Part shown: positions 16,762 to 19,044 of the stretch, piece after piece
How positions within the stretch are numbered: the stretch's first letter is position 1
Layout of the letters: the number at the start of each line of letters is the position of its first letter
DNA from: Egicoccus halophilus
GTDB lineage: Bacteria > Actinomycetota > Nitriliruptoria > Nitriliruptorales > Nitriliruptoraceae
Direction of reading: 5' to 3'
NCBI RefSeq assembly: GCF_004300825.1
Contig: NZ_CP036250.1
Coordinates: forward strand, 1,922,001 to 1,986,000
DNA: 64,000 bases
Notes under the pieces: generated by a model
Database searches by the model: none
What the model was told of the DNA's origin: nothing
What the model saw: the letters and a program-made list of their open reading frames with translations, nothing else
Translations under genes and position numbers: made by a program

Positions 16762-17907
16762 CTACGGGATCAGGAAGACGCCCAACAGTGGTACGACGAG
16801 GAACAGGCCCAGGACGTAGCCGAACACGACCGAGCGGCGGCGTACGGCCAGGTCGGCGAGCCGCTCGGCGAGTCGCACCGGCACGAGCCTCAGCTTGGGC
16901 ACCGGGTAGACGACCGCGAGTGCGAGCAGGTTGAACAGCGTGTGCACGAGCGCGATCGTGAGGCCCTCGGGCCGAAGGACGGCCAGCGATGCGAGCAGCG
17001 CGGTGATGGTCGTCCCGACGTTCGCGCCCAGCGTGATCGGATAGGCGTTGGGCAGGGTGAGGATCCCGGCGGCCACCAACGGCACCAGGATCGAGGTGGT
17101 GATCGTGGAGGACTGCACGGCGACCGTGACCGCGATGCCCACCAGGATGCCCATGGCGCCACCACCACGGCCGACGAGCCGGTTCATGGCCCGCTCGACG
17201 CCGCCGGCCACCAGCTCGCGCATGTTCCGCGTGATGAGCCCGAGCGCGAGGAAGATGAGCGCGAGCCCGAGCGTGAGGTAGATCACGCCGGCGAAACGGC
17301 CACCCAGCGGATCACCGTCGAAGAGCCCCTCGACCAGCTCCACCGGGAACTTGACCGCGGTACGGATCGGACTGGTGCCGACCTCGGCCACCTCGGTCCC
17401 GCGCAGGCGCACGGTGAGCCACTCGGCCGTCTCGGCGAGGAACCCGGTGGCGAGCTCGATCGGCAGCAGCACCGCCACCGCGAGCACGTTGAAGAAGTCG
17501 TGCATCGTCGCCCCGGCGAAGCCGCGGCGGAACTCGTCGGAGCGACGGATGTTGCCCAGCGACGCCAGCGTGTTCGTGACCGTCGTGCCGATGTTGGCAC
17601 CCATGATCATCGGCACCGCGAGCGGCACGGACAGCGTGCCGGCCCCCACCAGGCCCACGATGGTCGAGGTCGACACCGACGACGACTGCACCAGGACGGT
17701 GAACAGGATCCCGGCGAACAGCCCGGAGACCGGGTTGGCCACGTTGGTGAGCAGGCCCTCCTGGAAGCCGTCGCCGAGCGCGGCGATCCCCGATTCGAGC
17801 AGGCCGACACCCGCCAGGAACGCGTACAGCAGCGCGACGACCAGCAGCGCGCGCAAGGGCGTCGGCAGGTCCCGACGTGCCGCGGCGCGCGACGACGACT
17901 CGGCCAC
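16762..17907 (-). CDS. Na+/phosphate cotransporter family protein (NptA/PNaS)
   Basis: 381 residues with about nine hydrophobic helices arranged as two inverted repeats. Each repeat carries the signature QSS motif: TVLVQSSSVSTSTIVGLV and VAVQSSTITTSILVPLV. These also show GANIGTTVTN and GANVGTTITA, the paired substrate-site loops of the NptA/SLC34-like family. It should import phosphate with sodium, consistent with a sodium-rich habitat. Unlike many bacterial members it lacks a fused C-terminal PhoU domain; the separate phoU-like gene 33 bases downstream supplies that part. The start at 17905-17907 has weak ribosome-site match. Confidence 0.88.
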   Translation of the reverse strand: MAESSSRAAARRDLPTPLRALLVVALLYAFLAGVGLLESGIAALGDGFQEGLLTNVANPVSGLFAGILFTVLVQSSSVSTSTIVGLVGAGTLSVPLAVPMIMGANIGTTVTNTLASLGNIRRSDEFRRGFAGATMHDFFNVLAVAVLLPIELATGFLAETAEWLTVRLRGTEVAEVGTSPIRTAVKFPVELVEGLFDGDPLGGRFAGVIYLTLGLALIFLALGLITRNMRELVAGGVERAMNRLVGRGGGAMGILVGIAVTVAVQSSTITTSILVPLVAAGILTLPNAYPITLGANVGTTITALLASLAVLRPEGLTIALVHTLFNLLALAVVYPVPKLRLVPVRLAERLADLAVRRRSVVFGYVLGLFLVVPLLGVFLIP

Positions 17908-18050: not shown

Positions 18051-18078
18051 GAGGGGCGCGCCGTTCGGCGCGCCCCTC
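18051..18078 (-). terminator. Perfect 12-bp hairpin terminating the candidate RNA
   Basis: GAGGGGCGCGCC (18051-18062) pairs fully with GGCGCGCCCCTC (18067-18078) around a 4-base loop. There is no U tract on either strand, as is common for actinobacterial terminators. It could also stop leftward or rightward read-through in this gap. Confidence 0.7.
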
Positions 18079-18290
18079 TCCTGCTGGTGGAACCTCTGGC
18101 ACCGCTTCCGCAGGCTGGACGACCAGCCCCGGAAACGTCAGGCGGGACGAGTTCCCGACCGGCGCTCAAGTGGCGGTGCATCGGTTGGATTCCGCCGGAC
18201 GAACCAGCGACGACCTAGCGGCCGTGCACCTCCAGGGTCCCGTAAGAACTACTGCTATCCAAACGGACCACCTCCTTCCTCTGGTGCGGA
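18051..18290 (-). ncRNA. Candidate structured RNA of about 230 nt ending in a perfect terminator-like hairpin
   Basis: This 462-base gap (17908-18369) has no convincing protein gene. The minus strand reads as a compact RNA. P1 pairs GGTCC (18265-18269) with GGACC (18236-18240). A hairpin pairs GGCGG (18192-18196) with CCGCC (18172-18176). Their loops can kiss through TTGGAT (18257-18262) and ATCCAA (18185-18190). Further hairpins are CGGGA/TCCCG and GGCTGG-TCGT-CCAGCC. It ends in a perfect 12-bp hairpin. The 5' end has AAGGAGGTGGTCC (18265-18277), complementary to the 16S rRNA tail over 13 positions with one G-U pair. Size and pseudoknotting recall raiA-type RNAs, but I cannot verify any family. 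A 15-codon TTG reading frame after the GGAGG is an alternative. Confidence 0.5.
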
Positions 18291-18369: not shown

Positions 18370-19044
18370 ATGACTTCACCACCCCGCATCCTGCTGGTCG
18401 AGGACGACACGACCCTGCGCGAGTCCGTTGCCGTGGCCCTCCGCGGCGAGGGCTACGAGGTGGTCGCTGCGGCCGACGGCGCGCAGGGAACCGACCAGGT
18501 CGACGCCTTCCGGCCGGATCTCGCCATCCTCGACGTGCGCCTCCCCGGCGGGCCCGACGGGTTGGAGCTGGCACGGACCATCCGCGCCCGCGGGGACGCG
18601 CCGATCATCTTCGTCACCGCACTCGGCGACGAGGGGGACCGGCTCGCCGGCTTCGAGGCGGGGGGTGACGACTACGTCACCAAGCCGTTCTCGACCCCCG
18701 AGCTACTGGCACGCGTGCAGGCGTTGCTGCGGCGTGCGGGTCGGCTGGAGTCACAGGCCTGGCAGATCGACGACCTCGTCGTCGACGAGGCGGCACGCAC
18801 CGCGGTGCGCGACGGTGTCCCGGTCGAGCTGACGCGGACCGAGTTCGACCTGCTGATCACGCTGGGGCGCAACATCGGCACGGTCGTGTCCAAGAGCCGG
18901 CTGCTGGCGCTGGTATGGGGCTTCGAGAGCTACGACGAGAACCTCGTCGAGGTCCACATCAGCGCACTGCGTCGCAAGCTCGAGGCACAGGGGACCCGGC
19001 TGATCCACACCGTCCGCGGTGTCGGTTACGTCCTGCGCGGCTGA
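18370..19044 (+). CDS. OmpR/PhoB-family response regulator
   Basis: 224 residues from ATG 18370; TACCAT at 18358-18363 is 6 bases upstream, so the mRNA is probably leaderless. The receiver (1-120) shows LVEDD, phospho-acceptor Asp in AILDVRLPGG, TALGD and YVTKPFS. A winged-helix DNA-binding domain follows (about 130-224) with LTRTEFDLLITL and the recognition-helix region VEVHISALRRKLEAQGTRLIHTVRGVGYVL. Its stop overlaps the start of the histidine-kinase gene (TGATG), so the two form an operon and a cognate pair. Downstream targets are unknown. Confidence 0.92.
   Translation: MTSPPRILLVEDDTTLRESVAVALRGEGYEVVAAADGAQGTDQVDAFRPDLAILDVRLPGGPDGLELARTIRARGDAPIIFVTALGDEGDRLAGFEAGGDDYVTKPFSTPELLARVQALLRRAGRLESQAWQIDDLVVDEAARTAVRDGVPVELTRTEFDLLITLGRNIGTVVSKSRLLALVWGFESYDENLVEVHISALRRKLEAQGTRLIHTVRGVGYVLRG

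Follow-up and report, generated by a model that had tools for sequence, protein, structure and literature searches.

The RNA locus and its neighbours

In the 64,000-nucleotide stretch of the Egicoccus halophilus genome analysed here (the window), positions 18051-18290 carry a structured RNA on the minus strand. Its 5' end lies near 18290-18285 and its 3' end is formed by a terminator-like stem. The element is flanked on the plus strand by a response-regulator gene starting near 18370, and on the minus strand by a Na/Pi cotransporter gene (16762-17907) followed by a PhoU-domain gene. The RNA is single-copy in its own genome. The fold of minus strand 18290-18051 beats 200 of 200 dinucleotide shuffles (z -3.3; -3.5 in a repeat). 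A blastn search with this stretch finds matches in 31 of 61 relatives, down to E 1e-72 outside the own genome, and our broad covariance model R3 matches 18290-18129 with E 4.6e-27. The near-invariant blocks in the relatives are ACCAGAGRARGGAGGUGGUCC, GGGACCCUGGAGGU and GGCCGCU, plus a GUCCCGCC hairpin. Thus the coordinates, the strand and the structured nature of the RNA, all proposed in an earlier note, hold. That note had also placed the RNA in a gap without a protein gene, which is not quite correct, since a conserved ORF of 15 codons lies inside the RNA.

The terminator-like stem, GAGGGGCGCGCC-GAAC-GGCGCGCCCCUC (18051-18078, minus strand), is read from the sequence and its fold. It is a perfect 12-bp GC stem, pairing 18078-18067 with 18062-18051, as the earlier note had it. 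Only UU follows it, with no U tract, and scans for a consensus terminator and for a Sigma70 promoter were both empty at the locus. Between hairpin P4 (see below) and the stem, a conserved 3' block, GCGGUGCCAGAGGUUCCACCAG (18106-18083), is specific to the family and was not seen in other classes. The own terminator-like stem and the lack of conserved neighbours outside the family would fit a stand-alone gene; within the family one neighbour is conserved. In many family members (L006, L007, L009, L012, L016 and others), the place held by the response-regulator gene in the window is taken by a divergently oriented tRNA-Val(CAC) gene just upstream.

A divergent homologue of Ms_IGR-5

The RNA is, with near certainty, a divergent homologue of Ms_IGR-5 (Rfam RF02471), a small RNA of mycobacteria. 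An Rfam scan of the window returned no family over its threshold except tRNA elsewhere, and RF02471 was not reported; the window copy does not reach the gathering threshold of 45 bits. In the relatives, RF02471 matches 7 of 20 sequences at 18-24 bits, below threshold, over the full length and in the same register. To avoid circularity, the reverse comparison used a model, R1, built from 20 own-family sequences only. R1 recovers every Ms_IGR-5 locus from other actinobacteria (L021-L036) in register, nearly all with E between 1e-5 and 1e-10. The weakest of these matches (L029) has E 3.5e-4, and chance hits start at 0.066. Bona fide members, scoring 160-176 bits by RF02471, are detected by R1 at E 6e-8 to 4e-9, again in the same register. 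The two families therefore match in both search directions. They share the 5' AAGGAGGUGGUCC, the order of the elements, helix P2, the GCGAAUCC motif and a micro-ORF ending in E-V-x-x-x-stop. They differ in the middle hairpins, which are shorter in the window RNA, and in P1a, of type CCAG/CUGG in the window and CACGAG/CUCGUG in Ms_IGR-5. In addition, the structure line in Rfam assigns the Shine-Dalgarno region of Ms_IGR-5 to pairings other than the helices supported in this work.

The earlier note had suggested a ribosome-related non-coding RNA, either raiA-like or of an unknown class, and a search of Rfam for raiA, 6S and others. A structured, conserved and probably ribosome-related RNA is indeed present, but it is a relative of Ms_IGR-5 and neither raiA nor 6S. 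Searches for raiA gave no match, either in the window (E up to 10) or in the 20 relatives (E up to 5), and 6S RNA matched in neither set at any threshold tried. For comparison, raiA, 6S and Ms1 are free-standing structured RNAs of bacteria, about 200-300 nt long and with links to the ribosome or RNA polymerase (PMC9130861, PMC4191392). Ms1, considered for its length and phylum, was rejected: it is described as a long hairpin with a central bubble, in a different gene neighbourhood. Hits to mir and STnc320 in Rfam are due to the GC-rich terminator stem. A Guanidine-II hit is weak (22.3 bits, threshold 32) and lies on the plus strand, opposite the P4 hairpin region.

CC2171 (RF01867), an alphaproteobacterial sRNA, shows a similar layout: immediately behind AAAGGAGGUGAUC comes a conserved short ORF, and after it a terminator-like stem. 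Its ORF (MSHC..., 24-26 codons) has a conserved N-terminus and, unlike that of the window family, lacks the E-V-x-x-x-stop ending. An R3 search over 7.4 kb yielded no better than E 0.006-0.2 and so does not support homology. These loci (L250-L255) come from Methylobacterium, Azospirillum, Skermanella and Sphingobium plasmid records. CC2171 appears to be another RNA built along these lines, unrelated to the first.

Distribution of the RNA

Within the phylum, R3 matches 116 of 296 near-complete actinomycetote genomes, in 82 of 192 genera, almost always as one copy. Three small genomes (G014, G025 and G029; 1.7 Mb, 96-97% complete), all from genus g12 within the same family, lack the RNA. Blastn matches in other classes at E about 1e-4 were discarded as chance; the model places the true locus elsewhere (for example in G055, at 5455678 and not at the blastn position 5309736).

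A pattern search was made with two conserved RNA motifs and with no condition on a start or stop codon. It retrieved at least 120 loci in named genomes. Outside the phylum, it hit one genome labelled Spirochaetia and another labelled Acidobacteria. R3 searches of the corresponding phyla gave matches in 7 of 149 genomes for the Spirochaetia label and in 24 of 119 for the Acidobacteria label, many of the latter weak. RF02471 also matches several of these loci, with E from 5e-8 to 3e-5 and once above threshold. Labels of metagenome assemblies can be wrong; the hits nonetheless span many genomes of differing base composition. The RNA thus occurs beyond Actinomycetota, in Spirochaetia- and Acidobacteria-labelled genomes, and is therefore far older than the Rfam entry suggests. 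A phage or plasmid origin was rejected, with no real match; five pattern hits in viral contigs have no ORF and were taken as chance.

Helices and long-range pairing

Covariation supports helices P1a, P2 and P4 as well as a long-range pairing. The earlier note had named a lack of conservation or covariation in relatives as refuting; both were found. P1a pairs CCAG (18281-18284) with CUGG (18232-18235). Among 114 distinct loci, Watson-Crick pairs occur in 96, 93 and 89 cases at three of its positions, as compared to 40, 44 and 45 expected (0 of 2000 shuffles); other registers are much weaker or null. In alignment A3, 98.7% of its cells are paired. P1b joins GGUCC (18265-18269) to GGACC (18236-18240). 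It is 100% paired but invariant in the family, and 90.7% of its cells are paired over 97 loci; because it is nearly invariant, its own covariation support is small. P2 (18222-18230 with 18175-18184, one base bulged) is supported by compensatory changes in alignments A1, A2 and A3. Two hairpins complete the fold: P3, CGCUGG...CCGGCG (18193-18209), with 86.6% of cells paired and double changes at all pairs over the 97 loci, and P4, GUCGGG...CCUGAC (18137-18159), with the loop AACUCGUCCCG and double changes at 6 of 6 pairs. Over the whole structure, 91.0% of the cells of the 97 aligned loci pair; double-change cells number 482 (147 in shuffles), and the covariation score is 0.412 as compared to at most 0.067 for slid structures. 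As this alignment was made to fit the structure, it is biased in its favour; A1 and A2, built earlier from sequence alone, give the same picture.

The P4 loop offers GUCCC (18144-18148) to a mid-strand GGGAC (18237-18241) that overlaps P1b. The flanks of this long-range pair covary, in 54 of 109 loci as compared to 26 expected on one side and in 43 of 109 as compared to 22 on the other (0 of 10000 shuffles). These shuffles ignore relatedness; swapped controls, which share it, show no covariation. Rare variants changed on both sides also exist (GUGACC/GGUCAC, GCGACC/GGUCGC and UCGACC/GGUCGA). Because P1b and the long-range pair use the same bases, they are mutually exclusive. Their use as a switch is about as likely as not. 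As for the loop-loop pairing proposed in the earlier note, a UUGGAU/AUCCAA match (18262-18257 with 18190-18185) does exist, but it is kept only in the genus; the conserved pairing that covaries is the one described here.

An extended Shine-Dalgarno sequence and a conserved micro-ORF

The bulge between P1a and P1b contains most of AAGGAGGUGGUCC (18265-18277), which is near-invariant in 20 relatives. This sequence is complementary to the 16S tail GGAUCACCUCCUU at 13 positions, one of them a G-U, as previously noticed; allowing a second G-U lengthens the match to 16 bases (18280-18265). The tail was taken from a congener, the own genome's tail having escaped a pattern search. AAGGAGGTGRTCC occurs once in the 3.98-Mb genome. 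Four other RAGGAGGTGRTCC sites read GAGGAGGTGGTCC and lie in contexts resembling coding sequence.

Downstream, GGUCC is followed by two bases (GU), a UUG start, 14 further codons and a UAG stop. The resulting micro-ORF (18215-18262, minus strand; UUG GAU AGC AGU AGU UCU UAC GGG ACC CUG GAG GUG CAC GGC CGC UAG) has 15 codons and encodes MDSSSSYGTLEVHGR. In the own family, the spacer between UCC and UUG varies by single bases, and length changes after UUG are whole codons. The same rule applies to the loci of the pattern search. In each of the 120, the extended Shine-Dalgarno is followed at 1-6 nt by an in-frame start candidate, and the stop lies exactly three codons after GAG GUG (five codons after GAG); the spacing before the start is free, and the distance from start to GAG is always a whole number of codons. 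In the two other frames, a start and a stop coexist in 4 and 0 loci. The start candidates are UUG (55), AUG (45), CUG (10), GUG (8), ACG (1) and AUC (1), the last two being weak calls. The stop codon interchanges between UAG, UGA and UAA. Outside the phylum, the ORF, with its stop three codons behind GAG GUG, was found in 7 of 7 Spirochaetia-phylum loci and 9 of 9 newly fetched Acidobacteria-phylum loci read, with products such as MQFNIRRTSEVAER, MNQRLWMTGEVAER and MSSNHSEVAET. The start, the frame and the stop expected of a dual-function or translated small RNA are all conserved. The anti-16S stretch is thus the predicted Shine-Dalgarno of this micro-ORF rather than a free 16S-binding element.

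Some features of the codons deserve mention. UAG is generally rare as a stop in GC-rich actinobacteria; here it ends 92 of the 120 micro-ORFs (L061-L180) and lies in or beside a helix. IF3 discriminates against CUG, AUU, AUC and ACG start codons. Apparent starts of these kinds stand behind a perfect Shine-Dalgarno in L032, L034, L035, L038, L039, L056, L057 and L059. In L060, a locus found by the model (about 2506-2671, next to a tRNA-Glu gene), start and stop are kept and the GAG-GUG (E-V) frame is lost, possibly marking a degenerating copy or an exception.

The GAGGUG inside the ORF (18227-18232) is a candidate second Shine-Dalgarno. It was part of the search pattern, so its invariance among the pattern loci is partly by construction; every locus read from the Spirochaetia and Acidobacteria phyla has it. 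By the spacing in the sequence, a ribosome with the stop codon in its A site would have this motif six bases ahead of its P-site codon. This is the ideal distance for a Shine-Dalgarno.

The residues encoded before E-V evolve as if neutral. Between close pairs drawn from 172 ORFs filtered for stop position, N-terminal codons changed 415, 467 and 352 times at positions 1, 2 and 3, and 134 changes were synonymous as compared to 129 expected under neutrality; as the pairs are not independent, these counts are descriptive and not a calibrated test. Amino-acid selection on the N-terminal part is thus unsupported. The simplest reading is that the act of translation, rather than the peptide, looks to be under selection.

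A proposed translation-operated RNA and its alternatives

Taken together, the universal micro-ORF, its neutral residues, its fixed stop and the covarying alternative pairing argue that translation probably belongs to the working of the RNA. We propose, with a probability of about 0.6, that the RNA is a free-standing gene of the Ms_IGR-5 superfamily in which initiation, transit and termination of a ribosome on the micro-ORF operate a trans-acting switch. Established knowledge makes translation of the micro-ORF highly likely, the weakness of UUG as a start codon counting against it. In the proposed order of events, the extended Shine-Dalgarno would be presented in the P1a/P1b bulge and the start codon in the apical loop. 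The 3' part of the Shine-Dalgarno is also the 5' strand of P1b. Pairing of the 16S tail with AAGGAGGUGGUCC would break P1b and free the mid-strand GGAC, which would pair with the P4 loop instead. This long-range pairing involves codons before GAG, and the translating ribosome would then open P1, P2 and the long-range pair. It would terminate at one fixed point, five codons after GAG, where GAGGUG, at its Shine-Dalgarno distance, may hold it. The folded or ribosome-bound state of the RNA would putatively act in trans. We consider action in trans rather than in cis fairly likely, a cis role being unlikely in general because the neighbours differ between loci.

Three other explanations were weighed. 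The RNA could be a plain mRNA for a micro-peptide, the peptide of 11-19 residues being the product and the structure merely stabilising the message. The start, frame and stop kept everywhere fit this idea, as does a threonine found two codons ahead of E-V in 166 of 172 ORFs. However, the conserved residues T, E and V fall on bases under constraint in the RNA itself (GGAC, GAGGUG), the N-terminal residues change in a near-neutral manner and the N-terminus is wholly different between phyla, which makes this explanation unlikely.

Alternatively, the RNA could be a ribosome-binding non-coding RNA, a 30S trap or dormancy factor, whose anti-16S stretches bind the 30S subunit while translation is incidental. 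The 16-base complementarity with its two G-U pairs, the second GAGGUG and the weak start codons (UUG, CUG, AUC, AUU) would suit such a role. Ribosome footprints were also observed on Ms_IGR-5 in M. abscessus and M. smegmatis, in a study that itself cautions that many non-coding RNAs yield footprints (PMC4974804); the footprints also count in favour of the translation-operated reading. Binding to 30S leaves the conservation of start, frame and fixed stop across phyla unexplained, however, and we regard this explanation as quite unlikely.

Finally, micro-ORF and terminator could form, in a classical leader-peptide design, a cis-acting attenuator of the gene behind, here the Na/Pi cotransporter. 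In nearly all own-family members this gene comes next on that strand (about 64-90% identical), and it begins about 140 nt after the terminator-like stem. This explanation is quite unlikely, as outside the family the cotransporter adjoins the RNA in 0 of about 218 loci and downstream genes are unrelated or convergent (convergent more often, 66 as compared to 44) while RNA and ORF are unchanged. The conserved downstream target of an attenuator is thus found within the own family only; the RNA may have a cis role there, the cotransporter following nearly everywhere.

Returning to the translation-operated switch, it is tempting, if doubtful, to view the RNA as an ancient device shared by three or more bacterial phyla. 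A ribosome paired near-completely through its 16S tail, and stopped at one fixed codon under a second, internal Shine-Dalgarno, would set the state of a regulatory RNA mechanically, and the peptide would be irrelevant. If true, this would be a general sensor of translation state or of ribosome recycling working in trans.

Homologues of Ms_IGR-5 are transcribed in Streptomyces lividans and S. avermitilis (PMC8079986, PMC8780764), and Ms_IGR-5 was detected in M. smegmatis under cold stress. In the open-access literature searched, it is mentioned only as an sRNA and no description of its micro-ORF was found; the micro-ORF, the spread beyond Actinomycetota and the switch appear to be undescribed there. 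Ms_IGR-5 has been catalogued as a non-coding actinobacterial sRNA with no assigned function, and the present findings make translation a probable part of its mechanism. An orphan sRNA thereby becomes a directly testable system in laboratory actinobacteria such as Streptomyces coelicolor and Mycobacterium smegmatis.
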